Shown here: positions 9,187 through 52,392 of the stretch, one piece after another
Layout: every line of letters begins with the position of its first letter
Position numbering within the stretch: the stretch's first letter is position 1
The notes under the pieces: model-generated
Told to the model about the DNA's origin: nothing
Databases searched by the model: none
The model's input: the letters and a program-made list of their open reading frames with translations, nothing else
Translations under genes and position numbers: made by a program
Assembly (NCBI GenBank): GCA_005502925.1
Contig: SCPD01000011.1
Span: forward strand, 62,001-126,000
Direction of reading: 5' to 3'
Source: Rhizobiales bacterium Y(2018)
GTDB lineage: Bacteria; Pseudomonadota; Alphaproteobacteria; Rhizobiales; Aestuariivirgaceae
DNA length: 64,000 nucleotides

Positions 9187-9265
9187 CTAAACACCCCGTC
9201 GCGCCTGTTGCAGCCATGCCGCGAACAGGCGAGCGCCTCATCTCCAACCTCTTCAGTCTCCTCCC

Positions 9266-10201: not shown

Positions 10202-10204
10202 CGG

Positions 10205-11547: not shown

Positions 11548-11560
11548 AGCCTGTCGCTCT

Positions 11561-27772: not shown

Positions 27773-27783
27773 GGAGATGTGAC

Positions 27784-29543: not shown

Positions 29544-29544
29544 C

Positions 29545-31717: not shown

Positions 31718-31724
31718 ATAATCC

Positions 31725-32429: not shown

Positions 32430-32519
32430 GCTGACAGCGCGTGATCAGAAAAAGTGGCTGCCGGTTTTCCGTCCGATCACGCGCCAATAAAAGCGCTTCT
32501 GTCTTTGGGGAGATGACGG

Positions 32520-33314: not shown

Positions 33315-33317
33315 CGA

Positions 33318-33343
33318 TTATGGCCGGACAAGTCCGGCCATAA
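33318..33343. terminator. Symmetrical hairpin between convergent genes
   Basis: A perfect 12-bp stem (TTATGGCCGGAC, AA, GTCCGGCCATAA) in the 54-bp gap between the TauE-like gene and metZ. There is no T tract on either side, so it is a hairpin of uncertain strength that could act in both directions. Confidence 0.45.
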
Positions 33344-33368
33344 GGAGCTTCCAGCAGCTGTTCCGAGA

Positions 33369-34568
33369 TCAGGCGGAGATCGCCTGCTTGACGTCGTCGA
33401 TCACGTCCTCGGCGTCCTCGAGGCCGACCGACAGACGCAGCATGCCGTCGGTGATGCCCATGGTGGCGCGTGCCTCAGGGCCGATATTGCGGTGGGTCGT
33501 GGTCGCCGGATGGGTGATCAGCGATTTGGCATCGCCCAGATTGTTGGAGATGTCGACGAGCTGGAGATGGCGCAAGAGGTTGAAGGCCTTCTCCTTGCCG
33601 CCCGCAACCTCGAAGGTCACCATCGTGCCGCCGGCCGCCATCTGGCGCTGGCAGAGATCCGCCTGCGGATGGCTGTCGAGATGCGGATAGATCACCCGGG
33701 TGATGTCCTTGAGCCCGACAAGCGCCTCGGCCACTGTGCGCGCCGACTGTGACTGGTGCAGCACGCGCAGCTTCAGTGTTTCGAGCCCCTTCAGCAGCAC
33801 CCAGGCATTGAAGGGCGAGATCGACGGGCCGGTATGGCGCAGGAACGGCTTCAGCAGCTCTTCCTTGAACTTGCGCGTCGAGAGGATGGCGCCGCCGAGG
33901 ACCCGACCCTGGCCGTCCATATGTTTGGTGCCCGAATAGACGACGACATCGGCGCCGTAGCTCAGGGGCTTCTGAAGGACCGGCGTGGCGAAGACATTGT
34001 CGACCACGATCGAGGCGCCGGCGGCCCTGGCGATCTCGCAAACGGCAGCGAGGTCGATCACTTCGAGCGTCGGATTGGACGGCGTCTCGAGGAACACGCA
34101 TCTGGTGTCCGGGGTTATCGCCGAGCGCCAGGCATCGAGATCGGAGCCGTCGACCAGCGTATAGCGGATGCCGAAACGCGGCAGGATGCTGGTGATGACC
34201 TGATAGCAGGAACCGAACAGCGCCTTGGAGGAAACGATATGGTCGCCGGCCTTGAGCTGGCAGGCGAGCGCGCCGAAGACCGACGCCATGCCGGAAGCGA
34301 GCGCGTAACAGGCTTCAGCACCCTCCAGGAGCCGCAGCCGCTCTTCGAACATGGTGACGGTGGGATTGCCGTAGCGGCCATAGACATAGCCGTCATCCTC
34401 GCCGGCGAAGCGCTTCTCGGCGGTCTCGGGCTCGTCATAGACGAAGCCCGAATTGAGGAAGAGCGCTTCCGAGGTCTCGCCATGGGGCGAACGGTCGAGG
34501 CCGCCGCGCACCAGCTTGGTGTTCTCGCCCCAGCGCGCGGGCGATGAGGATTTGACGTCTTTCTTCAT
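33369..34568 (-). CDS. metZ: O-succinylhomoserine sulfhydrylase MetZ
   Basis: 399 residues of the Cys/Met metabolism PLP family. The cofactor lysine is in YSGTKHMDGQGRVLGG near 213-228 (Lys of SGTKH), and the family start TKLVRGGLDRSPHGETSEALFLNSGFVYD is clear. MetZ adds sulfide to O-succinylhomoserine to make homocysteine, using the sulfide made by the cys cluster. MetZ in alpha- and gammaproteobacteria is typically near 400 residues and is found with a rhodanese-like gene, as here. O-acetylhomoserine as substrate cannot be excluded. Confidence 0.87.
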   Translation of the reverse strand: MKKDVKSSSPARWGENTKLVRGGLDRSPHGETSEALFLNSGFVYDEPETAEKRFAGEDDGYVYGRYGNPTVTMFEERLRLLEGAEACYALASGMASVFGALACQLKAGDHIVSSKALFGSCYQVITSILPRFGIRYTLVDGSDLDAWRSAITPDTRCVFLETPSNPTLEVIDLAAVCEIARAAGASIVVDNVFATPVLQKPLSYGADVVVYSGTKHMDGQGRVLGGAILSTRKFKEELLKPFLRHTGPSISPFNAWVLLKGLETLKLRVLHQSQSARTVAEALVGLKDITRVIYPHLDSHPQADLCQRQMAAGGTMVTFEVAGGKEKAFNLLRHLQLVDISNNLGDAKSLITHPATTTHRNIGPEARATMGITDGMLRLSVGLEDAEDVIDDVKQAISA

Positions 34569-36110: not shown

Positions 36111-38570
36111 ATGTCAAAATCCCTGCCCGCCCGTGCCGATGTCGTCATCATCGGGGGTGGTATCGTCGGCGCGTCCATCGCCTATCACCTGGCCAAGCTC
36201 GGCATAAAGAACACCGTCCTTCTCGAGCGCAAGCAGCTCACCTGCGGCACCACCTGGCATGCGGCCGGCCTCGTCGGACAGTTGCGCGCCTCGCGCAACC
36301 TGACCGAGCTCGCCAAATATACGACCGGCCTGTTCGAGGGCCTGGAGAAGGAAACCGGCCAGGCGACCGGCTTCAAGCAGAACGGCTCGGTCTCAGTCGC
36401 CCTGACCGAAGGCCGCTTCGAGGAATTGAAGCGCGGCGCCTCGATGGCCAAGAGCTTCGGTCTTGAAGTGAATGTCGTCTCGGTCGGCGAAATCAAGGAA
36501 CGTCTGCCCCATTACAATCTCGACGGCGCGGTCGGCGGCGTCTTCCTGCCCAGGGACGGCCAGGTCAACCCGATCGACGTCACCCAGGCGCTCGCCGCCG
36601 GCGCCCGCATGAACGGCGCCAAGGTCTTCGAGAACAGCAAGGTAACCCGCATCCTGACCAAGGACGGCAAGGCTGTCGGCGTCGAGACGACGGACGGCAC
36701 CATCCACGCCGACAAGGTCGTCATCGCCGCCGGCATGTGGTCACGCGAGATCGGGCGCACCATCGGCGTCAATATTCCGCTCCATGCGGCCGAGCATTTC
36801 TACATCGTCACCGAGCCGATCGAAGAGCTGCCGCGCAACATGCCGGTGGTGCGCGTGCCGGATGAATGCACCTATTACAAGGAAGACGCCGGCAAGCTGC
36901 TGATCGGCGCCTTCGAGCCGGTGGCCAAGCCCTGGGGCACCGAAGGCATCGCCGAAGATCACTCCTTCGAGACGCTGCCCGAGGACATGGATCACTTCGA
37001 GCCCATCCTCAATGACGCGGTGGTCCGCGTGCCGTTGCTGGAGAAAGCCGGCATCGCCCTGTTCTTCAACGGGCCTGAAAGCTTCACGCCCGACGACCGC
37101 TATTATCTGGGCGAGGCGCCGGAGCTGAAGAACCTCTATGTCGCAACCGGCTTCAACTCGATCGGCATCCAGTCGTCGGGCGGCGCCGGCCTCGTCCTGT
37201 CGCAATGGATCAAGAACGGCCATCCGCCGATGGATGTGAGCGGCGTCGATATCCGCCGCATCCATCCCTTCCAGTCGGTGCGCCAATATGTGCATGACCG
37301 CACCGTGGAGAGCCTGGGCCTCCTCTATGCGATGCATTGGCCCTATCGTCAGGTCGAGACGGCGCGCGGCGTGCGCCGCTCCGCCATTCACGACAAGCTC
37401 GTCGCGCTCGGTGCCTGCATGGGCGAGGTCAATGGCTGGGAGCGGCCCAACTGGTATGCGCCGCGCGGCGTCGAACCGAAATACGAGTACTCCTATGGTC
37501 GCCAGAACTGGTGGCCTTATGCCGATGCCGAGGCCAAGGCGCTGCAGTCCAAGGTCGTCATGTTCGACCAGTCGAGCTTCTCGAAATATCTCGTCCAGGG
37601 CAGAGACGCGGCGAAGGTGCTGAACCGCATCTCGGCCAATGATGTCGATGTCGAGGAAGGCCGCATCGTCTATACGCAATGGTGCAATGAGCGCGGCGGC
37701 ATCGAGGCCGACCTCACGGTCACGCGCCTTGCCGCCGATAAGTTCATGGTCGTCACCGGCTGCGCACCGCAGACGCGCGACTTCGCCTGGCTGAAAACGC
37801 ACACGCCGGACGATGCCCATTGCATCGCGGCCGACGTCACATCGGGCCTGCCGATGTTCGCCCTCATGGGGCCCAACAGCCGGCCCCTGCTCCAGAAGCT
37901 GTCCGGCATGGACCTTTCCAACGCGGCGTTCCCGTTTGGCACGTCCAAGGAAATGGAGATCGGCTATGCCCGCGTGCGCGCCAGCCGCATCACCTATGTC
38001 GGCGAGCTTGGCTGGGAGCTTTATATCCCGACCGAATTCGCGAGCCATGTCTTCGAGCGCATCCTCGAGGCCGGCGCCGAATTCGGCCTGACGCTCGCCG
38101 GCATGCACACGATGAACAACTGCCGCGTCGAAAAGGCCTATCGCCATTGGGGCCACGATATTTCCGACGAGGACACGCCGGTCGAAGCGGGCCTCGGCTT
38201 CGTCGTCGCCTGGGACAAGACATCGGGCTTCATCGGCAAGGACGCGCTGTTGAAGCAGCGCGAGCGGAAAGCGCAGCCCAAGCGCATGATCTGCCTGGCG
38301 CTCGATGACGGCAGCGACAAGGCGCCGATGATGTATCATGAGGAGCCGATCTATCGCGACGGCGTCATCGTCGGCTCGACCACGTCGGGCGCCTGGGGCC
38401 ACCGCATCAATGCATCCCTCGGCATGGGTTATGTGAAGAACACCCCCGGCGTCACCAAGGAATGGATCGAGGCCGGCAAATGGGAAGTCGAGATCGCCTG
38501 GCAGCGTTACCCGGCCAAGGTGCAGCTGCAGAGCTTCTATGACCCGAAGGGCGAGAGGATCAAGGCGTGA
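36111..38570 (+). CDS. Sarcosine/dimethylglycine dehydrogenase family flavoprotein with GcvT domain
   Basis: 819 residues. The DAO-type FAD domain (about 11-370) has GGGIVGAS at 15-22 and GTTWHAAGL at 46-54; the His50 there is the residue that carries covalent FAD in dimethylglycine dehydrogenase. A short FAO_M linker (about 373-428) follows, then a GcvT folate-binding domain (about 470-710) and GcvT_C barrel (about 720-810). Such enzymes demethylate N-methyl amines and pass the carbon to tetrahydrofolate. The sub-family (sarcosine, dimethylglycine or another N-methyl compound) is not fixed by sequence. It appears to be a single-gene unit. Confidence 0.87.
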   Translation: MSKSLPARADVVIIGGGIVGASIAYHLAKLGIKNTVLLERKQLTCGTTWHAAGLVGQLRASRNLTELAKYTTGLFEGLEKETGQATGFKQNGSVSVALTEGRFEELKRGASMAKSFGLEVNVVSVGEIKERLPHYNLDGAVGGVFLPRDGQVNPIDVTQALAAGARMNGAKVFENSKVTRILTKDGKAVGVETTDGTIHADKVVIAAGMWSREIGRTIGVNIPLHAAEHFYIVTEPIEELPRNMPVVRVPDECTYYKEDAGKLLIGAFEPVAKPWGTEGIAEDHSFETLPEDMDHFEPILNDAVVRVPLLEKAGIALFFNGPESFTPDDRYYLGEAPELKNLYVATGFNSIGIQSSGGAGLVLSQWIKNGHPPMDVSGVDIRRIHPFQSVRQYVHDRTVESLGLLYAMHWPYRQVETARGVRRSAIHDKLVALGACMGEVNGWERPNWYAPRGVEPKYEYSYGRQNWWPYADAEAKALQSKVVMFDQSSFSKYLVQGRDAAKVLNRISANDVDVEEGRIVYTQWCNERGGIEADLTVTRLAADKFMVVTGCAPQTRDFAWLKTHTPDDAHCIAADVTSGLPMFALMGPNSRPLLQKLSGMDLSNAAFPFGTSKEMEIGYARVRASRITYVGELGWELYIPTEFASHVFERILEAGAEFGLTLAGMHTMNNCRVEKAYRHWGHDISDEDTPVEAGLGFVVAWDKTSGFIGKDALLKQRERKAQPKRMICLALDDGSDKAPMMYHEEPIYRDGVIVGSTTSGAWGHRINASLGMGYVKNTPGVTKEWIEAGKWEVEIAWQRYPAKVQLQSFYDPKGERIKA

Positions 38571-41312: not shown

Positions 41313-41903
41313 CTACGCCAATTTCCGCACCGTTTCCCTGACCCGCTGCAGGTGGCTGCGGCGCTGGTCGGGCGATGTGCTGTCCATCCGGTAGATCGCG
41401 ATATATTTCGTCTTGCTCAGCGGGTGACAGACAGCCCGGAAGCCGCGCAGCAAGGTGCGCCGCCCCGGCTGGCCGACGATCCAGGAGAGCCATGGCGTGG
41501 CGCCGCAGGTGGTGAGCGCCACGATGCGGCGGATATTGGTGAGTTTCGGCAAATGGTCGCGTTGCGCCGTCGGCATCTCGAAGGCGAAGCCCGGCACCAG
41601 CACCCGCTCGAGCCAGCCCTTCAGCATGGCGGGAACATTGAACCACCAGGTCGGGTAGATGAAAATCACCGCCTCGGCCCACAGCAGGTCATCAGCCTGA
41701 TCGCGGAACGGGTCGAGATTCTTGCCCTCTTCATTGTAGACCTGAAGATCGGCCACGCTCATCACCGGGTTGAAGCCGCGGCCATAAAGATCGATGAGCC
41801 GCGCCTCGTGCCCGTGCTCGCCCAAAGCCTCGAGCACCGTATCGCGGATCGCCGCGTTGAAGCTTTCAGGATTTGGATGGCAATAGATGACGAGAACGCG
41901 CAT
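41313..41903 (-). CDS. NAD(P)H-dependent FMN/quinone reductase (flavodoxin fold)
   Basis: 196 residues of the NQO1/KefF/MdaB-like group: MRVLVIYCHPNPESFNAAI at the start, the FMN-contact PTWWFNVPAMLKGWLERVLVPGFAFE near 105-130 and LTTCGATPWLSW in the middle. It transfers two electrons to quinones or nitroaromatics. The gene lies 3 bp after the NTF2-like gene on the same strand, behind the ECF transporter operon, so it may be cotranscribed with that operon. Its substrate is unknown. Confidence 0.83.
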   Translation of the reverse strand: MRVLVIYCHPNPESFNAAIRDTVLEALGEHGHEARLIDLYGRGFNPVMSVADLQVYNEEGKNLDPFRDQADDLLWAEAVIFIYPTWWFNVPAMLKGWLERVLVPGFAFEMPTAQRDHLPKLTNIRRIVALTTCGATPWLSWIVGQPGRRTLLRGFRAVCHPLSKTKYIAIYRMDSTSPDQRRSHLQRVRETVRKLA

Positions 41904-41906
41904 GGC

Positions 41907-42353
41907 TCAAACCTTGGCGGCCGCCTTGGTCTTGACGTGATGATGATCCTCGACCGAGCCAACCGTGTCGAAATATTCGCGCCAGGACAGGATTAGTCCA
42001 TTCTCATCGAAATCGACGATGATCGCGTCTTCGGTGCGGCTTCTCTGGCCGTCCTCGCGCCGCGAGATTTCCCACAGCCATTCGAGCGCCATGCGCCGCC
42101 CATCGGGTGAACGGAAGGCGTTGGTGACGGTAAGGACGAGATCGCCGTAATCGCGGTGGAAGTTCTCGATGGTGCGGGCAAGTTCGGGCTTCGGTATCCG
42201 ATTGCCGGGCGCCGTCAACACGCCCTCCTCATGCCAGTCCGCTGCGGCCGCGGGCGAGAAATCGCCGGTGAGCCAGGCCTGGCCCTGGCGCCCCAACATC
42301 GCGAGCGTCGCGGCGTCGCAGCCGGCCTTGGCCTGATCGGTGACGATGATCAT
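41907..42353 (-). CDS. NTF2/SnoaL-like protein next to the ECF importer
   Basis: 148 residues with NTF2-like helices (AATLAMLGRQGQAWLTGDF) and a sheet containing ADWHEEGVLTAPGNRIPKPELARTIENFHRDYGD and WLWEISRREDGQ. The start overlaps the ecfT stop by 4 bp (ATGA), which ties it to the transporter operon. It could act on or bind the imported compound or its product. No catalytic residues can be named. Third NTF2-like protein in the window, not closely similar to the other two. Confidence 0.65.
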   Translation of the reverse strand: MIIVTDQAKAGCDAATLAMLGRQGQAWLTGDFSPAAAADWHEEGVLTAPGNRIPKPELARTIENFHRDYGDLVLTVTNAFRSPDGRRMALEWLWEISRREDGQRSRTEDAIIVDFDENGLILSWREYFDTVGSVEDHHHVKTKAAAKV

Positions 42354-43177
42354 AGAACGGAGCCTCCAAATCCAAAAATGAGCCGTGCCGCCAGAGCGAT
42401 CACGGGCGCCAGCAGAAAGACGGCGATCAAGAGCTTCTCGCTAAGCGAGAGCTGTTCACGCGTCGGGTGAAGATAGGTGCGGTCGCCCGAGCCGGTGAAG
42501 GCTTTGGCCTGGAGCGCGATCTCCATGAGCTGCGCCTTGCTGAGGCAGATCATGACCAAGGGCACCAGCATGCGCGCCATGGCGATGAGCTTGCGCACGA
42601 GGCCGAGGCTGTCGATATCAACGCCACGCAGACGCTGCGCTTCCTTGATGCCCTCCATTTCCTCGAACAGCAGCGGCACGAAGCGAAAGGTGGTGGAGAA
42701 CAGGAAGGCGACGCGATACGGCACGCCGATGCGCGCCAGGCCGAGCACGATGTCGCGCGGATCGCTGGTCATGAAGACGAGCTGGAAGGCGAGCATCGGG
42801 ATCAGCAGCCGGCAGCAGACCGCGAGCCCGAACAGCAATCCCTCGACATAGAAGATATGCCAGCCGCCGACCCATGGCACGCTGTCGGGCACGGTAAAGA
42901 CCGGCGTCACGCCGAAGGGGCTCCACAGGCCCTGGATGACCGCGATCATGATCAGGGCCGGCGACAGGATGAGGATGAGCCGGCGGATCGTGGCGGCAGG
43001 CACGCGCGCCGCCAGCATCAGCGCCAGCATGAGGACGAGCACGAGCGCCTGGAGCAGCAGGTTGTTCCAGATGAAGATGATGGTGCTCGCCATGACGAGC
43101 AGCGCGAACTTCACCCGCATGTCGAGATGAGCGACCGCCGTATCGTTCGAGACCCGCTGCAGGAAGGACGTCGTCAT
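42350..43177 (-). CDS. ecfT: ECF transporter transmembrane component EcfT
   Basis: 275 residues with five or six membrane helices and the two coupling helices of EcfT: EAQRLRGVD near 170-178 (the A-R-G motif) and ALQAKAFTG near 225-233. It links the ATPase pair to the substrate-binding S component. It overlaps the ATPase gene by 4 bp upstream and the NTF2-like gene by 4 bp downstream. Dedicated (group I) ECF systems, in which all components sit in one operon, import vitamins, metals or heterocycles. Confidence 0.88.
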   Translation of the reverse strand: MTTSFLQRVSNDTAVAHLDMRVKFALLVMASTIIFIWNNLLLQALVLVLMLALMLAARVPAATIRRLILILSPALIMIAVIQGLWSPFGVTPVFTVPDSVPWVGGWHIFYVEGLLFGLAVCCRLLIPMLAFQLVFMTSDPRDIVLGLARIGVPYRVAFLFSTTFRFVPLLFEEMEGIKEAQRLRGVDIDSLGLVRKLIAMARMLVPLVMICLSKAQLMEIALQAKAFTGSGDRTYLHPTREQLSLSEKLLIAVFLLAPVIALAARLIFGFGGSVL

Positions 43178-44946
43178 GCCGGCACCTCCGGCGCGAGGCC
43201 GAGCCGCTCCGCGAGATCGCGCGGGCCCAGCGGATGCAGATCCCGCAAGGCCGGCACCGCTTCAGCAAAACGCACCGTCTGCGGCGGGATGATCGCCGCC
43301 TCTTTCAACCGGGTGCGTTCATAAAAGACCTGGCGCAACGGGCCGTCGAGCACCACCTTGCCGCCATTCATGATGACCAGGCGCTCGGTGAAGCCGGGCA
43401 ACAGATAGAGATGATGGGTGACCAGCACGACCGTCTTGCCCATGCCGTTCAGCGTCTTCAGCGTATCGAGAATGGCGAGCGAGCCGCGCCAGTCCTGGCC
43501 GGTCGTCGGCTCGTCGAAGATCAGGATCTGCGGTTCGAGCGCCAGCACGGCGGCGATGGCGACGCGCAAGCGATCGCCGCGGCTCAAGGAAATCGGATGA
43601 CGATCCACTGCCCAGGCGAGATCCATCAGCGCCAGCGATTTTTCCACCGCCGCTTCGATCTCAGGTTTCGGGCGTTTCATCATCGACAGCGCGAAGCCGA
43701 CCTCGCCCGCGACCGTGTCAGAAAAGATCTGCTGATGCGCGTTCTGCGAGACATAACCGATACGGCGCGCCATATCGCTGACCTTCATGGCGGCGATGTC
43801 CTCGCCCATCACCCTGACCGTGCCGCTGCTCGGCGCCATGAGCTTCAGGAAGTGCCGCACCAGGGTCGTCTTGCCGCTGCCATTGCGCCCCAGAATACCG
43901 ACGAATTCCCCCTGTCCGATGGCGAGATCGATGCCGCGCAACGCCTGGGTGCCATCGGGATAGGTATAGGTGAGATTGTCGACCGACAGCGCTGCCGCTC
44001 CTGCCTTGCTCACGTGCTCCTCATGCGATGGTCCGGCCGGAATTTCGAGACCCGGCAATGCTGAAACCACCGCCACCGCCGCCGGCAAGGTGATCGGGAG
44101 CGCCGTTGTGTCGTTCCAGCCGGCATGGCGGCGCAGCACGTCGAAACTCTGAGTGATGTCTGGCGGCCGCACCCGGTGCTCGCGCAGCATCGCGGAAGCT
44201 GAGAAGACTTCGCTCGGCGGCCCTTCGGCGGCGATGCGTCCGTCGGAGACGAGCAGGATACGGTCGGCGATCTGCGCCAGCTCCTCGCTCGCATGGGTGG
44301 CGATGACCACCGTGGTTCGGCTCTCCTGCTTGAGCTTGAGCAGGATGGCGAAGATATCTTCGGACGCGGCCGGATCGAGCTGTGAGGTCGGCTCGTCCAG
44401 CACGATGATGTCGGGCGCCAGCGCCAGGGCCGATGCTATGGAAAGGCGCTGTTTCTGGCCGCCCGACAAGTTGGCCGGATGCTTCGTTTCATATCCCGTC
44501 AGTCCCACCATCGCGAGCGCATCGCGCACGCGGCGGCTGATCTCCGGCGTCGGGACTTTCAGGTTCTCGAGCGCGAAAGCCACTTCGCTTTCGACCGTCG
44601 TCGCGGTGATCTGAGTTTCGGGGTCTTCGAACACCATGCCGACCAGATGCGCCAGCCGGCTTATCGGCGTCTCGATCGTGTCGAGGCCGGCCACCGCCAC
44701 CGTGCCGAAGAAGGTGCCGCTGAAGAATTGCGGCACGATTCCGTTGAGCGCCAGGCAGAAGGTCGATTTGCCCGCCCCGGTCGGCCCGATGACGCCGATG
44801 ATCTCGCCGCGATCGATGGTGAGATCGATATCCTTGAGCACCTGGCGGTCGCTGCCCGGATAGGCGTAGCTCACCTTCTCGAAACGGATGAGAGGTGCGT
44901 CAGCCAGGCCGGGCGCGGCCGCCAGATTGCCCATATGCATGTTCAA
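43174..44946 (-). CDS. ECF transporter ATPase, EcfA-EcfA' fusion
   Basis: 590 residues with two CbiO-type cassettes in one chain, a fused form of EcfA and EcfA'. Cassette 1: Walker A GPTGAGKS at 54-61, signature NLSGGQKQRL, Walker B IIVLDEPTS. Cassette 2: Walker A GRNGSGKT near 355, signature SLSRGDRLRV (LSxGQ degenerate), Walker B ILIFDEPTTG. The weak second signature means one composite site may be less active. It drives import with EcfT and the S component in the same operon. Confidence 0.9.
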   Translation of the reverse strand: MNMHMGNLAAAPGLADAPLIRFEKVSYAYPGSDRQVLKDIDLTIDRGEIIGVIGPTGAGKSTFCLALNGIVPQFFSGTFFGTVAVAGLDTIETPISRLAHLVGMVFEDPETQITATTVESEVAFALENLKVPTPEISRRVRDALAMVGLTGYETKHPANLSGGQKQRLSIASALALAPDIIVLDEPTSQLDPAASEDIFAILLKLKQESRTTVVIATHASEELAQIADRILLVSDGRIAAEGPPSEVFSASAMLREHRVRPPDITQSFDVLRRHAGWNDTTALPITLPAAVAVVSALPGLEIPAGPSHEEHVSKAGAAALSVDNLTYTYPDGTQALRGIDLAIGQGEFVGILGRNGSGKTTLVRHFLKLMAPSSGTVRVMGEDIAAMKVSDMARRIGYVSQNAHQQIFSDTVAGEVGFALSMMKRPKPEIEAAVEKSLALMDLAWAVDRHPISLSRGDRLRVAIAAVLALEPQILIFDEPTTGQDWRGSLAILDTLKTLNGMGKTVVLVTHHLYLLPGFTERLVIMNGGKVVLDGPLRQVFYERTRLKEAAIIPPQTVRFAEAVPALRDLHPLGPRDLAERLGLAPEVPA

Positions 44947-44947
44947 C

Positions 44948-45724
44948 TCAGTAACCCGCGAGCTTCGCTTTGGCGATGGGCGAGCGGCGGATGGCGGCGA
45001 GCAGGCCGAAGCCGATAAGCGCCCCCACCGCCGAGAAGGCGATGCGTTCGACCGCGATGATGAAGATCAGCGCCGGCCACACTTCCGCGGGCCACGGATT
45101 GGTGGCGAAGGCCGGCACCCAGTTGAGCTGAATGCCCGCCGTGGAGCCAAAGAAGAACACCACATAAAGCGCCACATAGAGCTTCCAGCTTCGGACGCCT
45201 TCGCGGATGGTCGCGATCGCCCAGTTGCGGATCTGCGGAATGGCGATGAGGATGAGGCCCAGATCGACAGTGAAGACATTGCTCAGCCACAGCGGGAAGC
45301 TGATACCGAAGGTCAGCGACTGATAGAGATAGACGACATGGGCGACGAGCGTGATGATCCACGGTATGAACCAGTAGGAGCGGCCCGGATACATGACCAT
45401 GCCGACCGTGAAGGCGCACATGCTGCCGATCAACACGCCCCACGGCCCGAGATTGGTATAGGGCGCGATGACATTGCCGATGACCGTGCCGATCAGCGAG
45501 GCGATGGGACCGGCGATGGGGCCGAGAAGCAGGCCGACCACCGGATGGATCACGTCATGGAGCGGCCAGCCGCCGGCCATGCCGCCGACGACGATCGAGG
45601 CCGGCACCAGGGCCATGACGGCCACCAGGGCCGCGAGAATGGCCGTGTAGGAAACCGGCGCGCCACCGATAGAGACGCCCCCGCCTCCTCCGACAGTACG
45701 TGACTGCGTAGAATTGTCCGTCAT
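44948..45724 (-). CDS. Candidate ECF substrate-binding (S) component
   Basis: 258 residues with six or seven membrane helices and a glycine-rich N-terminal tail. The first helix pair (TAILAALVAVMALVPASIVVGG, then HPVVGLLLGPIAGPIASLIGTVIGN) is typical of S components, which present an A-rich helix to EcfT. It resembles none of the well-known specific groups (BioY, RibU, ThiT, HmpT) closely enough to name the ligand. GGGGAGGAG precedes the ATG. It is the first gene of the ECF operon and lies behind a RutR-like operator. Confidence 0.72.
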   Translation of the reverse strand: MTDNSTQSRTVGGGGGVSIGGAPVSYTAILAALVAVMALVPASIVVGGMAGGWPLHDVIHPVVGLLLGPIAGPIASLIGTVIGNVIAPYTNLGPWGVLIGSMCAFTVGMVMYPGRSYWFIPWIITLVAHVVYLYQSLTFGISFPLWLSNVFTVDLGLILIAIPQIRNWAIATIREGVRSWKLYVALYVVFFFGSTAGIQLNWVPAFATNPWPAEVWPALIFIIAVERIAFSAVGALIGFGLLAAIRRSPIAKAKLAGY

Positions 45725-45843
45725 TTTGCTCCTCCCCAGGATGCTCTGACCGATATGTTCTAATGGCGCAGCTTGTTAGCGTCCGGTTTCCGGCGATGAG
45801 CCGGAGCGCGGGATTCATGGCGCCGATGGTGATGATAAGCAAT

Positions 45844-45876
45844 CTGAGCAATCGGTCAAACTGTTTGTTTGGTTTT
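45844..45876. promoter_or_regulatory. RutR-like operator between the ECF operon and the tetR gene
   Basis: CTGAGCA-N2-CGGTCAA at 45844-45859 matches the E. coli RutR box (TTGACCA-N2-TGGTCAA) at 11 of 14 fixed positions, and a perfect CAAAC-T-GTTTG palindrome overlaps it at 45857-45867. A 31-bp block from 45846 is 27/31 identical to 50704-50734. Confidence 0.7.
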
Positions 45877-46010
45877 TCTCAGGATTTTTGCTAGAGGGTG
45901 AGACCGGCATGGCCGGGTTACGCGAAATACTCGCTTCTGGCTGAATTTTGAGCATGTCATGTGCTAGGAATACTATGCAGTCCCGATTCAAATCTGCAGC
46001 AAGGAGGAAA

Positions 46011-46652
46011 ATGGCGGCGCCTGAGAAGAAGAATGGCCGAGAGCGCATGCTCGATCGCCGCAAGAAGATCCGCGAAGCCATTCGCCAGGCGGCCATCGAC
46101 GAATTCGCCCAGAAGGGTCTGGCCGGCGCTTCCACCCAATCCATCGCGCAGCGCGCCGGGCTCACCAAGCCGCAGCTCCATTATTACATCTCGAGCAAGG
46201 AAGAGCTTTACGAAGAAGTGCTCGTCCACATCAACGAGCTGTGGCGCGACATCTTCATCGCCTCCTCCGGCGACAGTAAGGATCCGGCCAAGGTCATCCG
46301 CGACTATGTGCGCAACAAGCTCGAATTCGGCCGCCGCCATCCCAATGCCTCGCGTGTCTTCTCCAACGAGGTCGCCGCCGGCGGGCACTATCTGCAGAAG
46401 CACTGGCACAGTGCGCGCGAGGCGACCCGCGCCGCCGCCGAGATCATCCAGTCCTGGGTCGACAAGAAGCTGATCAAGCCGGTCGATCCCTGGCTGTTCC
46501 AGATGCACATCTGGGCGGTGACCCAGCATTACGCCGATTACGAGGCGCAGATCCGCTTCATGCTGCAATTGAAGGACGGCGAGGAGATCGACATGGACCA
46601 TGTCGTCGACGAAGTCTCGACCCTGTTTCTGCGTGCTTGCGGGCTGAAATAG
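46011..46652 (+). CDS. TetR family regulator, RutR-like
   Basis: 213 residues from the ATG at 46011 with a strong AAGGAGG site; the longer frame from 45948 is not needed. The HTH is at about 20-70 (IDEFAQKGLAGASTQSIAQRAGLTKPQLHYYISSKEELYEEVL), and the C-terminal domain follows the RutR/TetR_C_13 pattern with RHPNASRVFSNEVAAGGHYL and FQMHIWAVTQHYADYEAQI. RutR of E. coli binds uracil or thymine. It is divergent from the ECF operon and probably binds the two 31-bp operators at 45846 and 50704, switching on import and breakdown together. Confidence 0.87.
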   Translation: MAAPEKKNGRERMLDRRKKIREAIRQAAIDEFAQKGLAGASTQSIAQRAGLTKPQLHYYISSKEELYEEVLVHINELWRDIFIASSGDSKDPAKVIRDYVRNKLEFGRRHPNASRVFSNEVAAGGHYLQKHWHSAREATRAAAEIIQSWVDKKLIKPVDPWLFQMHIWAVTQHYADYEAQIRFMLQLKDGEEIDMDHVVDEVSTLFLRACGLK

Positions 46653-46667
46653 CTATTCCCGTCATTC

Positions 46668-46805
46668 CCCCTCTCCCGTCCGAAGGATGGGAGAGGGTGG
46701 CCGAAGGCCGGGTGAGGGCTCTTCGTCTGTGCACAGAACTACTAAGAAGAGCCCTCATCCGCCCTGTCGGGCACCTTCTCCCATTGCTACGCAACGGGAG
46801 AAGGG
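46668..46805. repeat. Composite palindromic intergenic repeat
   Basis: Three nested or adjacent stems in about 138 bp: CCCTCTCCC/GGGAGAGGG (46669-46697), GGTGAGGGCTCTT/AAGAGCCCTCATCC (46711-46760) and CCTTCTCCC/GGGAGAAGG (46774-46804). The wording (CTCACCCGGCCTTCGG type on the other strand) is like the dispersed BIME-like repeats of Hyphomicrobiales. It separates the convergent tetR and ferredoxin genes and may act as a transcription stop in both directions. Confidence 0.65.
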
Positions 46806-46824
46806 AAAGACGGTGGGAAGCCCT

Positions 46825-47145
46825 TTAAATCTGCCTCGCTGGCAATCGCACCGTCAGCCCGTCGAGCGCCGGTGAAATCCTGATCTGGCAGGCCAGCCGC
46901 GAATTGGGCGCGACCTCATAAGCCATATCGAGCATGTCGGCCTCCATCGCATCGGGCTCGCCGACCTTCTCGCGCCATTGCGGATCGACATAGACATGGC
47001 AGGTGGCGCAGGAGCAGGAGCCGCCGCACTCCGCCTCGATGCCCGCGACGCCATTGCGCACCGCCGTTTCCATGAGGCTCGCACCTTCCGCCGCCGCGAC
47101 TTCGAGCGCCTGTCCCTCGCGCGTGATGAAGGTCACCTGGATCAC
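46825..47145 (-). CDS. [2Fe-2S] ferredoxin of the catabolic block
   Basis: 106 residues, adrenodoxin/putidaredoxin type. Ligands are Cys40, Cys46 and Cys49 (C-x5-C-x2-C), with Cys86 as the fourth; Cys44 is extra. It overlaps the FAD oxidase gene by 4 bp. A matching FAD ferredoxin reductase is encoded at 50756 under the same type of operator, so NADH - reductase - ferredoxin is a likely chain. The acceptor is not clear, as no P450 or Rieske oxygenase gene is present in the block. Confidence 0.85.
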   Translation of the reverse strand: MIQVTFITREGQALEVAAAEGASLMETAVRNGVAGIEAECGGSCSCATCHVYVDPQWREKVGEPDAMEADMLDMAYEVAPNSRLACQIRISPALDGLTVRLPARQI

Positions 47146-48512
47146 GGCCGCGCCGCCATGTCGCTCGTCCAGCCTTGCGTCTTGCCCGGATTCATCAGGC
47201 CATAAGGGTCAGCCCTTTTCTTGAACTCGATCTGCGACTGGTCGATCTGCTTCATGCCGCCCTCTTCGATCGTAAAGACATGCGGATCGTAGATGGTGCA
47301 GCCGTCGAGCTCCTCGAATTCGCGGATCATCCGGTACATGGCATCCCTGCCCCGGTACTTCACCAAGGGCAGGCCGAAGATCTGCACCTCGCCCTCGAGC
47401 CGCGCCATTTCGTGGTGCATGTAGACGTCATCGCCATAACGGTGCATCTGGCGCAGCACGAGATCGGGATCGAAGGGTCTCGGATAGGCGACCTGCAGAT
47501 AGGTCCAGCTCTTGTCGGCCTTGAGCGCCTGCAAGGTCGTGTGATTCCAGCCGCATTCATAAGCAGGCTGCAGGCCGGCCGCGGTCAGATCGGGCTTCGG
47601 CATGGCGAAGGAAATCCTGCCCCCATGCGCCGCCGCCAGAGCCTCGAAGCGCGGCATCTCCTTCGGCGCCACCATCGCGAACACACCGTCGCGATCGGCC
47701 GGGAAGAGCGGACCATATTTGCTGTAGAAGCGTGCGAAGCGGCGTTCGACCGGCGTCAGCAGATAGCAGTCGAGCCCCACATGCTGCGCCTCCATGGCGA
47801 AGCGCAGCGCCTTGTCATAGCCCTCGAAAAGTGCGGCGGTGTGAATCCAGTCGGTCGCCGGCGTCAGCGCGACATCGATCTCCAGAATGATGCCATTGGT
47901 GCCATAGGCGTGCTGGACTTTCTGGATATCCGGTCCGTGCAGCTCGATGATCTGCGGCTCGGGCTCGACCGACATCACCTTGACATAACCGACATTGCCG
48001 TCGTCGCGCAGCATGCCGTGGCGCAACGAGCCGACACCGCCCGAGCCGCCCGACAGGAAGCCGCCGATCGTGGCGATGCGCCTGGTCGAGGGATACATCA
48101 GAAGCTCCTGCCCGCCTTCGCGCGCGGCATCGTCGAGCCGCGCGATGCGCGCCCCCGCTTCCACCCGGGCGCGGCCGGGCTCGAGCGCCAGGATGCGGTC
48201 GATCTTGGTGACATCGAGGATGATGCCGCCTTCCAGCGGCACGCACTGACCGTAATTGCCGGTGCCGCCGCCGCGCACCGTGAGCGGCACCTTGTGCCGG
48301 GCGGCGGCGGAAGCGACGCGGCGCACTTCGTCCTGATCCTTGGGCAGCACCACGAGATCGCCGACCCTGCCTTCCAGCGCCTGGCTGAGGATCGGGCTGT
48401 ACCAGAAATAGTCGCGCGACTTGAGCTCGACCTGCTTGGGGTCGTCATAGACGCGAATGCCCTCGATTTCCCGGCGAAAGGCGGCGAGATCGTAACCGCG
48501 CTTCTCGGTCAT
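47142..48512 (-). CDS. FAD-linked oxidase (PCMH / GlcD type)
   Basis: 456 residues. The FAD_binding_4 half (about 40-215) has TVRGGGTGNYGQCVPLEGG, which follows the PCMH nucleotide motif; the second half (about 220-450) is a substrate domain unlike that of the GlcD protein at 19503 and lacks the GHLGDGN metal motif. The end NPGKTQGW is typical for the superfamily. It may oxidise an alcohol, amine or ring position of the imported compound. It is translated with the ferredoxin (4-bp overlap) and the amidohydrolase (4-bp overlap). Confidence 0.78.
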   Translation of the reverse strand: MTEKRGYDLAAFRREIEGIRVYDDPKQVELKSRDYFWYSPILSQALEGRVGDLVVLPKDQDEVRRVASAAARHKVPLTVRGGGTGNYGQCVPLEGGIILDVTKIDRILALEPGRARVEAGARIARLDDAAREGGQELLMYPSTRRIATIGGFLSGGSGGVGSLRHGMLRDDGNVGYVKVMSVEPEPQIIELHGPDIQKVQHAYGTNGIILEIDVALTPATDWIHTAALFEGYDKALRFAMEAQHVGLDCYLLTPVERRFARFYSKYGPLFPADRDGVFAMVAPKEMPRFEALAAAHGGRISFAMPKPDLTAAGLQPAYECGWNHTTLQALKADKSWTYLQVAYPRPFDPDLVLRQMHRYGDDVYMHHEMARLEGEVQIFGLPLVKYRGRDAMYRMIREFEELDGCTIYDPHVFTIEEGGMKQIDQSQIEFKKRADPYGLMNPGKTQGWTSDMAARP

Positions 48513-49693
48513 GCGGGCCTCCGGCGCTGCCGGCCCTGTCCGAGCTTGCGGCCATTGCGATAGACGATGCGCTCGGCATTGGGCCGGCTGACCAGGTCAT
48601 TCAGGTCGGCGGCGTCGAACCAGATGAAATCGGCGCGCTGCCCGTCCGCGACGGGAGCCATCGGCGAACCGCAATGCGCCGCCGGCTTTGTCGTGATGCT
48701 GTCGAGCCAGTCGCGCGGATCGACATGGCAGGCGAGCACCGCGAGTCTCAGGATCGCCAGCGGATCGTAATCGCCGAAGGGATAGAAAGCATCGCGGCAA
48801 TTATCGACGCCGAGCAGAACCTCGACACCGGCCTTGCGCGCCTCGAGAACCGGCGCCACGCCGCGCCGGCGCGGCGAGCGTCCGCCATTGCGGTCCTGCA
48901 GATAGAGATTGGTCGTCGGAAGCGCCACCAGAGCGACGCCGGCTTCGGCACCCGCCACCAGCGTACGGGTCAGCCTGTCGTCGTCATGGAGCGACAGCGA
49001 GCAACCATGACCGCACAGGACGCGCCCCGACATGCCGGCGCGTTTGGTCGCCGCGATGATTTCGGAGAAGCCGTCGGCCTCGATATCGAGCCCTTCATCA
49101 ACATGAAAGTCGAGCGCCAAGTCATGCCGGCGCGCCAGCTTGAAGGCGACATCGACTTTGCTCGGCAGGTCGGCATTGCAATAGAAGAAGGCACCGAACA
49201 CGCCTTTGTCGCGGCGCACCCGCTCGGCGATGCGTTCACCGCCCTCGGGAAGGAGGTCGGCGGGCGCCAGGGCCGCGAGCTGCAAGTCGACGCGCCCTTT
49301 CCACTCGTGCTTCAGCTCATTGAGCACCGGCCAGGCGATCGGCGCGTCGGGCTCGGGCCAGTCGACATGGCTGCGCAACACCCGGACGCCATTGAGATAG
49401 GCGGCTTCGAGCGCACGGCCGGCGCGGCTGCGGATGTCGTCGACCGTCCATTGGCGCATATCCTCTTCCATGAGCGCGATGGCGTCGAACAGGCCGTTCA
49501 CCCGGCCGTTCAGCCGCTCGACCGTATAGGTCTTGTCGAGATGCACATGCGCATCCGCGAAAAGCGGCGTCACCAGCCCGCCATCGCCGCCGGAAGACGG
49601 CGTGATCGCCGTGATGCGTCCGTCCGCGACGGCGATATCGACTCGCTCCGGCGCACCGGCGACAGTTACGGCTTCGAGCACGAAACGGTCCAT
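48509..49693 (-). CDS. Amidohydrolase, cytosine deaminase-like
   Basis: 394 residues of the metal-dependent amidohydrolase superfamily, CodA-like branch. The first metal motif reads DAHVHLDKTY near 58-67, the second His is in DFHVDEG near 205, then CGHGCSLS near 240, and the last metal Asp in LLGVDNCRD near 300. Such enzymes deaminate or open cyclic amidines and amides such as cytosine, isocytosine or creatinine. ATG at 49691-49693 is preferred; a GTG at 49702 overlaps the upstream stop (GTGA) and is also possible. The substrate is not fixed by sequence. Confidence 0.82.
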   Translation of the reverse strand: MDRFVLEAVTVAGAPERVDIAVADGRITAITPSSGGDGGLVTPLFADAHVHLDKTYTVERLNGRVNGLFDAIALMEEDMRQWTVDDIRSRAGRALEAAYLNGVRVLRSHVDWPEPDAPIAWPVLNELKHEWKGRVDLQLAALAPADLLPEGGERIAERVRRDKGVFGAFFYCNADLPSKVDVAFKLARRHDLALDFHVDEGLDIEADGFSEIIAATKRAGMSGRVLCGHGCSLSLHDDDRLTRTLVAGAEAGVALVALPTTNLYLQDRNGGRSPRRRGVAPVLEARKAGVEVLLGVDNCRDAFYPFGDYDPLAILRLAVLACHVDPRDWLDSITTKPAAHCGSPMAPVADGQRADFIWFDAADLNDLVSRPNAERIVYRNGRKLGQGRQRRRPA

Positions 49694-49698
49694 TTGGG

Positions 49699-50499
49699 TC
49701 ACCAGCCGGGCTGATTGTCTAGCCAGGCGAGCGGCGCCCGTTCGATCTCTTCGAGCGCCGCGGCGATCCGCAGGGCGACGAAATCGAGAGTCTGGCGGCC
49801 CTTGTCGAAGCTCGCCGCCGAAGCGTCGCCGCAGGCACCTTCCGGATTGAGATCCTGCGACTGCCAGCCGGGCTTGGCGCCGCCGGACAGGCTGATATGG
49901 CAATAGTCACGCTCGAATTCCTCCGTAAGCGGATGAAAATTCTTTGCCTTGTCCATGTTCACGAGCATCGGTTGGAGCGCCAGCATCACCGAGGTCTCCA
50001 TGTCGCCGGCATGGACGCCGTGCTTGAGTTCGTGATCGCCATAGAGACCGTCCGGCATGCCGAGGCCGAACCAGTTGAGGGAGAAAGCCAGCATATGGTG
50101 CCGGCGGCGCAGCTCGCGCGCCACGATGTCCATGATGGCGATCTGGCCGCCATGGCTGTTGAGCATGACGAATTTGCGCACCCCGCTATGGGCGACCGAG
50201 GCGCCGATCTCGGTCCACATGCGGATCAGCGTTTCGGCCGAAAAAGTGAGTGTGCCGGGAAAGCGCAAATGCTCGTCGCTCTTGCCGATCGGCATGGTGG
50301 GCAGAAACAGAACCTGGCTGCTGTCGGAAAGCTTTTCCGCTACCGCCGCGACGATGCCGGAGATGATCGCGGCGTCGACCGAGAGCGGCAGATGCGGCCC
50401 ATGCTGTTCGGTGGCGCCAACGGGGAGGACGGCGACGATGCGGTTGCGGTCGAGCTTCGAGAACTCCTCACTCGAATAATCCGACCAGTAGCGCTTCAC
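49699..50499 (-). CDS. Creatininase family amidase
   Basis: 266 residues from the GTG at 50497-50499, which has AGGAG 7 bp upstream; the open frame continues upstream through two palindromic repeats, but that part is not protein. Creatininase-family metal motifs are clear: VGATEQHGPHLPLSVDA with the Glu-His-Asp ligands near 35-52, NSHGGQ near 125 and HAGDMETSVML near 170. Members hydrolyse cyclic amides (creatinine, formamide groups, or FAPy-type intermediates in deazaflavin and riboflavin pathways). First gene of the minus-strand catabolic block. Confidence 0.85.
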   Translation of the reverse strand: MKRYWSDYSSEEFSKLDRNRIVAVLPVGATEQHGPHLPLSVDAAIISGIVAAVAEKLSDSSQVLFLPTMPIGKSDEHLRFPGTLTFSAETLIRMWTEIGASVAHSGVRKFVMLNSHGGQIAIMDIVARELRRRHHMLAFSLNWFGLGMPDGLYGDHELKHGVHAGDMETSVMLALQPMLVNMDKAKNFHPLTEEFERDYCHISLSGGAKPGWQSQDLNPEGACGDASAASFDKGRQTLDFVALRIAAALEEIERAPLAWLDNQPGW

Positions 50500-50519
50500 C
50501 TTGCCTCTCCTAGGCTGAT

Positions 50520-50645
50520 AGAGCATCGGACCGAAAAGTGCGTAGCGGTTTTCGGAGAATCCGATGCGCAGAATAACGAGATAGAGCATCGGACCGAAAA
50601 GTGCATGGCGGTTTTCGGACATTCCGATGCGCAAAATAACGAGAC
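50520..50645. repeat. Two tandem 63-bp palindromic repeats (copies 1 and 2)
   Basis: Copies begin at 50520 and 50583 with AGAGCATCGGACCGAAAAG and are nearly identical over 63 bp. Each contains arms GCATCGGA / TCCGATGC and CCGAAAA / TTTTCGG. A third copy is at 63298. They lie in the leader of the creatininase operon, between the operator at 50702 and the GTG at 50499, and read as open frame, which explains the spurious N-terminal extension of the creatininase frame. Confidence 0.85.
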
Positions 50646-50701
50646 AGAGTGCGGTAATGGCTTCATGAAAACATCCGCCCTTGACCTTGTCTCTAACATA
50701 T

Positions 50702-50734
50702 CAGAGCAAATGGTCAAACTATTTGTTTTGTTTT
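50702..50734. promoter_or_regulatory. RutR-like operator between creatininase and ferredoxin reductase genes
   Basis: CAGAGCA-N2-TGGTCAA at 50702-50717 matches the RutR box at 11 of 14 fixed positions. The block 50704-50734 is 27/31 identical to 45846-45876. It lies in the divergent promoter region of the two catabolic units. Confidence 0.7.
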
Positions 50735-50755
50735 CTTGGAGACTATGCCACCGTC

Positions 50756-51991
50756 ATGACCATGCAAGAGCACTGCATCATTATCGGCGCCGGCCATGGC
50801 GGCGTGCAAGCCGCGGCGAGCTTGCGCCAGGAAGCCTATCAGGGCCGCATCACCCTGGTGAGCGATGAGCCCGATCTGCCCTATCACAAGCCGCCACTCT
50901 CCAAAGGGTTCCTAAAGACACCTGAAGCGCCAGTGCTCGAATTGCGCAATGAAGCTTTCTATCGCGACAGCGGTATCGACCTCTTGAGTGATGTGCGCGT
51001 CACGGCGATCGAACCCGTCACGAAGACCGTCAGCCTCGCGGACGGCGGCAAGCTCGCTTTCACGAACCTCATCCTGGCGACGGGATCACGGCCACGCCTG
51101 CCTGAGCTCGACGGTGTCACACTCGACGGCGTGCTGAGTCTCCGAAGCCTCGCCGATGCGCGCCGCCTTAACGAGGCGCTCAGCGGGCCGAAGCGCATTG
51201 CGATCATCGGCGGCGGCTTCATCGGCCTCGAGCTCGCCCATACGCTGGCCGGGCTCGACCATGCCGTGACCCTCATCGAGGCCGTGCCGCGCCTCCTCGC
51301 CCGTTCGGTTTCACCAGCCATGGCGGACCATATCCTGGCCCGCTCAGCTGAGGCCGGCATCGACTTTCATGTCGGCGCGCGGATCTCACATATCGAAGGG
51401 GCGAATGGCAAGGTGGCAGCGATCAGGCTCGCCGACGGCCAGCATCTTCCCGCCGATATCGCCATTCTCGGCACCGGCGCTCTGCCCAATGTCGAGCTCG
51501 CCGCCGAGGCCGGTCTCGCCGTCAATAACGGCATCGAGGTCGACGCCTTTCTGCGCTGCTCCGATCCGGCGATCCTCGCCATCGGCGACTGCTCCAATTT
51601 CCACCAGGTCCATGCCGGCCAGCGGCTCCGGCTCGAATGTGTGCAGAATGCCACCGACCAGGGACGCAATGCCGCCAAGACAATCGTCGGCAAGCCGGAA
51701 GCCTATCGCGAATTGCCCTGGTTCTGGTCGGATCAGGGCGATATGAAATTGCAGACCGCTGGTCTCAGTCTGGGCGCCGATCAGACCATCACCACCGGCG
51801 CATTGCAAGACAACGCCTTCGCCATCCACCACTTCCGTGATGGCAAACTCATCGCTGTCGACACGATCAACCGCCCGGCCGATCACATGCTGGCGCGCCG
51901 GCTGATCGGCACCCGCGCCACACCGACCCTTGCGGATGTGCAGGCGGGCCCCCAGCGGCTCAAGGAAATGCTGAAGGAGGCTGCCCAGTGA
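50756..51991 (+). CDS. FAD-dependent ferredoxin reductase
   Basis: 411 residues: FAD motif IIGAGHGGVQAA (9-20), NAD motif AIIGGGFIGLELAHTL near 148-163, the second FAD motif near AILAIGDCSNF (about 280), and a C-terminal reductase_C domain (about 325-405). This is the putidaredoxin/rubredoxin reductase type (CamA, ThcD). The ATG at 50756 overlaps the stop of a possible four-codon leader ORF (50745-50759, MPPS) as ATGA. It should pass NADH electrons to the ferredoxin at 46825, which lies under the same operator. Confidence 0.87.
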   Translation: MTMQEHCIIIGAGHGGVQAAASLRQEAYQGRITLVSDEPDLPYHKPPLSKGFLKTPEAPVLELRNEAFYRDSGIDLLSDVRVTAIEPVTKTVSLADGGKLAFTNLILATGSRPRLPELDGVTLDGVLSLRSLADARRLNEALSGPKRIAIIGGGFIGLELAHTLAGLDHAVTLIEAVPRLLARSVSPAMADHILARSAEAGIDFHVGARISHIEGANGKVAAIRLADGQHLPADIAILGTGALPNVELAAEAGLAVNNGIEVDAFLRCSDPAILAIGDCSNFHQVHAGQRLRLECVQNATDQGRNAAKTIVGKPEAYRELPWFWSDQGDMKLQTAGLSLGADQTITTGALQDNAFAIHHFRDGKLIAVDTINRPADHMLARRLIGTRATPTLADVQAGPQRLKEMLKEAAQ

Positions 51992-52392
51992 CGCTTCACC
52001 ATCTCCTGCCCGCGACGATCCGCAAGCCCTTCGCCCAGTACAGCCATGGCGTGCGGGTCGAGGCGCCGAGCGACCTGATCTTCTGCTCGGGTCAGCTCGG
52101 CATCGGGCCGGACGACACCATCCCGGAAGACGCCGCCGCTCAGGCGGAACTGTGCTTCGCCAATATCGCGGCGATCCTGGCGGATGGCGGCATGAGCCTC
52201 GCCGATGTCGTGCGCATCAACGCCTATGTCACCGACCGCGGCTTTATGGCCGCCTATATGAGTGTGCGCGACCGGCTGTTTCCAGCACCTTCGCCCGCCT
52301 CGACCTTGATGATCGTCGGAGGCTTCACGCGTGCGGTTTTCAAAGTCGAGATCGAGATCGTCGCGGCTAGAAGCTCAGAGCACGTCGCCTAA
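51988..52392 (+). CDS. RidA family protein
   Basis: 134 residues of the RidA/YjgF/RutC family: PFAQYSHGVRVEAPSDLIFCSGQLGIGPDDTIPEDAAAQ, NIAAILADGGMSLADVVRINAYVTD, and the imine-binding Arg expected at DRLFPAPSPASTLMIVGGFT. Members hydrolyse reactive enamines and imines; RutC in the pyrimidine pathway removes aminoacrylate. It overlaps the ferredoxin reductase stop by 4 bp, so it belongs to the catabolic block and suggests that an unstable imine or carbamate forms. Its end overlaps the convergent sulfotransferase gene by 18 bp. Confidence 0.9.
   Translation: MTLHHLLPATIRKPFAQYSHGVRVEAPSDLIFCSGQLGIGPDDTIPEDAAAQAELCFANIAAILADGGMSLADVVRINAYVTDRGFMAAYMSVRDRLFPAPSPASTLMIVGGFTRAVFKVEIEIVAARSSEHVA

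Follow-up and report, generated by a model that had tools for sequence, protein, structure and literature searches.

A candidate catabolic regulon for an amino-substituted N-heterocycle, with an ECF importer where relatives carry an ABC importer, in an Aestuariivirgaceae bacterium

The closest systems to the gene block described here are operons in which a creatininase-family hydrolase, a cytosine-deaminase-like amidohydrolase (CDA) and an FAD-binding oxidoreductase (FADox) are fed by an ATP-binding cassette (ABC) importer, as in Nitratireductor pOM-1, Mameliella pKUB257 and, more distantly, Rhizobium johnstonii 3841 pRL12. The block lies at positions 41313–52392 of a 64,000-nucleotide stretch of Rhizobiales bacterium Y(2018) (contig SCPD01000011.1, 62,001 to 126,000; hereafter, the window). 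It has the creatininase, CDA and FADox genes in the identical order, but an energy-coupling factor (ECF) importer where the ABC-fed operons use an ABC importer of the NMT1/THI5 type. We propose that the block is probably a regulon that is induced by its substrate and serves the catabolism of an amino-substituted N-heterocycle, in all likelihood a pyrimidine-like one. On the sequences compared, one motif is present both in the gap between the ECF and TetR genes and in that between the genes for creatininase and a ferredoxin-NAD(P) reductase-like flavoprotein (FNR), this motif tracks a RutR-like TetR regulator, and relatives have an ABC importer where the ECF importer is found here.

Other described pathways resemble the block in part. 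The Rut pathway has in common with it a RutR-like TetR and, in the RidA protein, kin of RutC. However, the block proteins score below the cut-offs for RutR (139.9 bits vs 368) and RutC (28 vs 169), no RutA match was found among the 12 block proteins, and CDA and creatininase are additional in the block. Creatinine degradation involves a creatininase fold and a CDA-like deaminase, but the block protein reaches only 94.8 bits with TIGR04448 (cut-off 235), and FADox and ferredoxin are not known to be part of that pathway. These scores bear out the original prediction, made from the DNA alone, that the block encodes neither the Rut pathway nor creatinine degradation. The cyanuric acid pathway atzDGEHF and the free-standing atzG-E-H clusters are described as amidohydrolase-rich N-heterocycle clusters with ABC transporters (PMC6219798). 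One related locus (L058; loci are given as L numbers and genomes as G numbers) carries AtzE and HpxZ, but none of the 12 block proteins matched AtzE, HpxZ or allophanate hydrolase at E 0.001. Searches directed at this combination of genes, at competing pathways, at ECF transport and at RutR, in a literature collection largely without subscription papers but including PMC6219798 and PMC12625717, yielded no description of this operon, and the PDB codes of a FADox relative, 6V42 and 6V43, were found in no paper of this collection. Within that literature, the pathway is undescribed, as had been predicted.

The motif shared by two promoters

The 17-nt motif GGTCAAACTRTTTGTTT has two exact matches, one between the S and TetR genes and the other between those for creatininase and FNR (Table 1). 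No other site with up to three mismatches was found in the 64 kb (expected number, 0.04), and two sites were obtained in none of 100 shuffles. The motif was derived from the two window sites, so that the exactness of these two matches is built in, and the other genomes constitute the independent test. In a comparison of 55 loci, TGGTCAAACTRTTTG was found with at most two mismatches upstream of creatininase in nine of the 13 operons with TetR (the near-twin L003 included) and in none of the 31 operons without it; the other 11 loci had no creatininase match, and the set includes, besides L003, near-duplicates such as L048/L078, L043/L046, L045/L047, L040/L178 and L072/L075. In the close clade of ABC-fed operons (L040–L047 and L178), a RutR-like TetR is likewise encoded and the motif precedes creatininase, with at most two mismatches in eight of the nine and with three in L047. 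Sites with two mismatches were also found away from creatininase in L058 and L079.

The aligned sites reach to about CAAAyAGTTTGACCnnTTGCT, and the two window sites agree at 28 of 40 compared bases. At the ECF promoter, the motif overlaps the -35-like TTGACC of a promoter-like TTGACC-16-TATCAT on the minus strand (such matches are at chance level overall), and this position over the -35 element would suit a repressor. The motif contains TGGTCAA, which we take to be one half of the RutR consensus; in a scan for the full RutR palindrome, the promoters held nothing better than sites with three mismatches. We infer that the TetR protein binds the motif. The grouping of these genes goes beyond chance, because the motif is common to both divergent promoters and the syntenic flanks are found in sister genomes without the block (see below). 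The block is very probably one co-regulated unit, and the view that its genes act together as a functional unit is strengthened by the common motif at the two promoters and by its tracking of TetR across operons.

ABC-fed relatives and importer exchange

FADox relatives with 69–76% identity were found on nine plasmids, eight of which (H1–H8) were examined, H9 being left out. Their common gene order is creatininase, ABC permease, amidohydrolase, FADox, substrate-binding protein (SBP) and TetR, with an ABC ATPase gene after creatininase; in Leisingera this ATPase has no entry in the annotation table but a match was found in the gap. Each of four further genes, encoding a flavodoxin-fold NAD(P)H oxidoreductase (NQO), RidA, ferredoxin and, divergently, FNR, was found in some of H1–H8 only. 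FADox is 69–77% identical in the ABC-fed operons, and each of the three SBPs tested from related operons belongs to the NMT1/THI5 type. Like the window block, the ABC-fed L040, L041, L042, L044 and L178 have a divergent FNR, and some ABC-fed operons contain RidA, NQO or ferredoxin; unlike it, they lack a match to the SnoaL-like protein and their TetR gene is on the enzyme strand. More distant operons were found in Rhizobium, Agrobacterium, Ruegeria (with no ABC ATPase or permease seen beside the operon), Comamonadaceae, Klebsiella, Rahnella and Pantoea. pRL12 and others of these differ from the block by a LysR gene. The enteric loci of Klebsiella, Rahnella and Pantoea, as well as L112 and L126, have a PDR/VanB-type reductase, which may stand in for ferredoxin and FNR.

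Clustering of 54 operon loci, fetched at our own choice and excluding the short stubs L010–L039 and the S-only L004–L009, gave FADox in 50, SBP-like proteins in 46, ABC ATPase-like proteins in 44 (a cluster that takes in ECF and other ATPases), CDA in 42, creatininase in 38, permease in 36, NQO in 26, RidA in 26 (plus four in a second RidA cluster), LysR in 15 and TetR in 10, some genes having been overlooked in these counts by the picking of open reading frames (ORFs) on codon periodicity. FADox matches at E 1e-60 are present in 32 of 398 genomes of the phylum, the window genome included, and 127 of 129 genomes sampled from Mesorhizobium, the genus of G358, carry the gene. Tandem FADox genes were observed in L054 (three in a row, 8828-12908) and L050 (two, 9219-11908), and one FADox copy contains a single in-frame TGA (G535:C1:111154-112476). 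In Klebsiella and Rahnella (L082, 894-4323; L083, 830-4290), a divergent 2-oxoglutarate (2OG)-Fe(II) oxygenase, a PRK12393 8-oxoguanine-deaminase-like amidohydrolase and an SBP lie beside the FADox operon.

No NMT1/THI5 ABC importer genes were found among the ORFs of the block, where the ECF importer is present instead, and no ECF S match was found in the 10 fetched ABC-fed operons with a FADox identity of at least 69% (L040–L047, L049 and L178). In a FADox tree of 28 rows, the window and L003 branched beside the ABC-fed L040 and L178 (support 97/87), inside an otherwise ABC-fed clade (100/97). Relative to L178, the window retains the FNR gene divergent from creatininase and the creatininase-CDA-FADox order; the ATPase-permease and SBP genes are lacking, ferredoxin directly follows FADox, TetR is on the other strand, and the window RidA and NQO are unmatched in L178. 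The simplest reading of these sequences is that an ABC importer was lost from the block and an ECF importer was gained.

In the sister genome G343, where the block is absent, only about 0.5 kb separates the left flank (peroxiredoxin) from the right one (TPR/sulfotransferase-like), and in G345 an FNR gene (77%) lies between the same flanks. The flank proteins of the sister genomes are 71–99% identical, except for two additional matches that are short or weak. Since the flanks are syntenic without the block in both genomes, it was probably gained or lost as a whole. The lone FNR gene of G345 could be read as a remnant of a lost block, and no motif was found near it. G341 contains a distant partial FADox. 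The S component and a close FADox occur in the same two of 69 genomes of the family, which amounts to one event rather than independent cases.

The ECF module encodes A, A', T and S components together. A28 and A32 are invariant in eight S sequences, and an AxxxA motif in transmembrane segment 1 is a hallmark of ECF S components. The S protein exceeds the PF07155 gathering score only marginally and over 91 residues, so that its ligand is not firmly indicated; it had no NCBIfam match, and no match up to E=1 in a PDB sequence search. An AlphaFold2 model built from eight close rows (mean predicted local distance difference test score 38) was too poor for fold comparison and was discarded. At gathering thresholds, no Rfam riboswitch was detected in the window or in L003–L009, the seven loci with relatives of the importer identified by a scan of genome contigs. 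L003, from Aestuariivirga sp. YIM B02566 and apparently the same assembly as G342, retains the whole block at 91–99.6% identity. The other six loci, five from Mesorhizobium and one from Kaistia, have an S protein 73–77% identical and keep the order S-A-A'-T-SnoaL-NQO in all cases; among the loci compared, the SnoaL-like protein was found with the ECF module only. The S component is rare: the window genome was the only one with it among 289 genomes of the class and among 398 of the phylum (profile search), G342 being the second in the family, and it was found in five of 129 Mesorhizobium genomes, one match being partial.

The ECF modules of Mesorhizobium and Kaistia nevertheless show kinship with the enzyme operons, from which they stand apart. 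In all six genomes, the best other genome-wide match of the ECF-linked NQO lies inside a FADox operon (47–55% identity in four genomes, 32–35% in two). A LysR gene of one subfamily adjoins the ECF genes in each of the six loci (56–100% identity to the LysR of L008), with no close copy in the window genome (best 32%). When the LysRs linked to the ECF genes of L008 and L004 are compared with LysRs beside the FADox operons L048, L078, L079, L114, L116 and L123 (L048 and L078 being near-duplicates), identities are 38–42% (184–221 bits, blastp). With L008 as query, unlinked LysRs in the eight genomes searched reached at most 133 bits, a value from HMMER and hence from a different program.

The pathway is not ECF-fed as a rule, because the enzyme relatives usually carry an ABC importer and, in Mesorhizobium and Kaistia, the ECF genes are found next to a LysR gene and away from the enzymes. 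The predicted ECF feeding would thus apply to the lineage of the window, the only one seen with ECF genes in the place of the importer, and is not supported as a general rule. The original prediction had also held that importer and enzymes occurring in random combinations would speak against a common pathway. The enzymes are indeed absent from the fetched DNA around the ECF genes in the six loci outside Aestuariivirga, but the combinations are not random, given the shared motif and the ECF-linked NQO and LysR proteins that are kin to those of enzyme operons. There is about an even chance that this is a widespread and undescribed proteobacterial pathway for an amino-heterocycle in which, in one lineage, an ECF importer under the operator of the pathway itself has replaced the ABC importer and its binding protein, so that ECF transport feeds a nutrient pathway rather than vitamin salvage.

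Substrate and competing explanations

The metal and catalytic residues of CDA (H55, H57, H203, E206, H235 and D303) are near-invariant in 28 sequences. In the creatininase-like protein, E76, H78, D87 and H161 (the E-H-D-H motifs) are near-invariant in 26 sequences, and the glutamate corresponding to creatininase E122, presumably a functional residue, is not conserved. Several distant operons have further enzymes beside them: in L114, an allophanate hydrolase that scores above cut-off, together with the last part of a urea carboxylase gene truncated at the edge of the fetched DNA; AtzE and HpxZ, both above cut-off, in L058; an 8-oxoguanine deaminase above cut-off in L113; RutB/BiuH-like hydrolases in L058, L116 and L114, all below their cut-offs; and Rieske, 2OG-Fe(II) or TauD oxygenases in L050, L054, L116, L058 and L060. 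These neighbours point to nitrogen-rich heterocycles, without naming a compound, and our best guess for the substrate is an amino-substituted, pyrimidine-like heterocycle. The proposal that the enzymes are of a degradative type for an N-heterocycle or cyclic amide is supported.

In the proposed mechanism, TetR would bind the motif and repress both promoters until the heterocycle is bound, and the ECF importer would take up this heterocycle. The CDA-like enzyme would hydrolyse an exocyclic amino group, FADox would dehydrogenate either the ring or one of its side chains, ferredoxin/FNR and NQO being the predicted electron carriers, the creatininase-like enzyme would hydrolyse a cyclic amide, and RidA may remove the resulting imine or enamine as ammonia.

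Several observations weigh against this proposal. The ECF importer and the enzymes are joined in a single lineage (the window and a sister with a 97%-identical FADox), and none of the creatininase, CDA, FADox, ferredoxin, TetR, FNR and RidA genes was found in the fetched DNA around the importer in any of the six loci outside Aestuariivirga (for L008, this DNA covers only 5.4 kb upstream). Co-occurrence of ECF and FADox in Mesorhizobium was rejected as evidence, because of the base rates given above (127/129 for FADox vs 5/129 for S). In the fetched DNA of L040 and L178, the nearest ABC-fed operons, neither NQO nor RidA was matched, and the window TetR is on the strand opposite to theirs. Related TetRs, only 41–45% identical, lack the motif in L081, L112 and L124, and the LysRs of the enteric-type loci L082–L084 and L126 are at background level with respect to the ECF LysR. 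Q156 and D314 are substrate residues of CodA; in all 28 CDA sequences compared, Asn stands at the D314 position, and the Q156 position is mostly Pro and never Gln, so cytosine itself is an unlikely substrate. Finally, the six ECF-bearing Mesorhizobium and Kaistia genomes all hold an ABC-fed operon elsewhere, so the ECF substrate there may differ.

This last coexistence would also fit an ECF importer that takes up a cofactor or precursor, such as a flavin, to supply FADox, FNR and NQO, rather than the catabolic substrate. For S, only one family, the riboflavin S family PF07155, gave a match above cut-off, and the ECF module travels with the NQO flavoprotein. However, this match is marginal, no riboswitch was detected in the loci searched, and in the window the block has no ABC importer and the ECF genes are under the same motif as the enzymes; we consider this explanation unlikely, if worth keeping in mind. 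A catabolic substrate of another kind would be the pyrimidine moiety of thiamine, hydroxymethylpyrimidine (HMP), or a close relative, with FADox oxidising the hydroxymethyl group and CDA removing the 4-amino group. The three tested SBPs are of the NMT1/THI5 type, one of them weakly matches 4nmy (30.9 bits), a chain that we take to be thiamine-binding, and the A-A' fusion presumably resembles YkoD. PF09084 is nevertheless a broad family, no thiamine pyrophosphate riboswitch reached the gathering score in the window or L003–L009, and the allophanate hydrolase beside L114 suggests an N-CO-N moiety that is absent from HMP, which makes this substrate rather improbable.

NQO, SnoaL and RidA families also have roles in stress, and the block might then be a unit for detoxification or salvage. 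A high-affinity type of importer with hydrolases under a substrate-type repressor, and a FADox gene in almost every Mesorhizobium genome, argue for nutrition, and we regard a detoxification unit as very unlikely. It is barely credible that two unrelated operons lie side by side by accident: the absence of the seven enzyme-side genes from the six other ECF loci would fit, but the shared motif, the kinship of NQO and LysR, and the presence of both modules in the same two family genomes (a single event) speak against it.

If the regulon reading is correct, the block represents an orphan nutrient pathway of soil, rhizosphere and marine bacteria with an assayable regulator, a candidate operator and importers, and a natural case of ECF/ABC importer exchange on one pathway; the operator and regulator would provide a ready sensor for finding the compound.

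Gene layout and neighbouring sequence

The block consists of two minus-strand operons and two plus-strand units (Table 1). The enzyme operon runs creatininase, CDA, FADox, ferredoxin, and the importer operon S, fused A-A', T, SnoaL/NTF2-like protein, NQO. The TetR gene, which is divergent from S, separates these operons, and the FNR-RidA pair is divergent from creatininase. Family searches of the block proteins recovered every gene named in the original prediction, and the NQO and SnoaL-like genes are two further members.

Table 1. Features of the block, in window positions
Feature	Position	Strand	Evidence
NQO, flavodoxin-fold NAD(P)H oxidoreductase	41313..41903	-	PF02525, 122 bits
SnoaL/NTF2-like protein	41907..42353	-	PF12680, 26.2 bits, just below cut-off 27
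ECF T component	42350..43177	-	PF02361, 100 bits
ECF A-A' fused ATPase	43174..44946	-	TIGR04520, 437 bits (cut-off 315); TIGR04521, 427 bits; both above cut-offs
ECF S component	44948..45724	-	PF07155, 28.3 bits vs 26.7; residues 24-114 only
Putative TetR operator over -35-like TTGACC of ECF promoter	45854..45870	+	Exact GGTCAAACTRTTTGTTT
RutR-like TetR regulator, ATG 46011 after AGGAGG	46011..46652	+	PF08362, PF00440; RutR model 139.9 bits vs 368
[2Fe-2S] ferredoxin	46825..47145	-	PF00111
FAD_binding_4 oxidoreductase (FADox)	47142..48512	-	PF01565, 95 bits; 6v42_A, 402 bits
Cytosine-deaminase-like amidohydrolase (CDA)	48509..49693, start ATG 49693 or GTG 49702	-	PRK07583, 345 bits, under cut-off 403
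Creatininase-family hydrolase, probable start GTG 50499	49699..50499	-	PF02633, 243 bits; homologue start positions
2 x 63-nt direct repeat between motif and creatininase	50517..50642	.	Sequence
Putative TetR operator, creatininase/FNR divergent promoter	50712..50728	+	Exact GGTCAAACTRTTTGTTT; same site in ABC-type operons
Ferredoxin-NAD(P) reductase-like flavoprotein (FNR)	50756..51991	+	PF07992, PF14759
RidA-family protein	51988..52392	+	PF01042

Most creatininase homologues align from about residue 45 of the ORF starting at 50634. This ORF is probably too long, with the real start at the GTG given in Table 1; it appears to be artificially lengthened, because the extra part spans the tandem repeat, the copies of which are 92% alike. 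A stretch matching the translated repeat region was also observed behind the lone FNR gene of G345 (L192, 16000-16128).

Elsewhere in the window, a gene close to the block at 36111-38570 (819 aa) was recognised by eye as dimethylglycine/sarcosine-dehydrogenase-like; related genes are found near the ABC-type operon in L072–L075 and L128, possibly by chance. A cluster resembling sulfate and siroheme assimilation (CysG-like, sulfite-reductase-like and CysH-like proteins and a sulfur-amino-acid PLP enzyme), recognised by eye from the translations, occupies positions 27571-34568.

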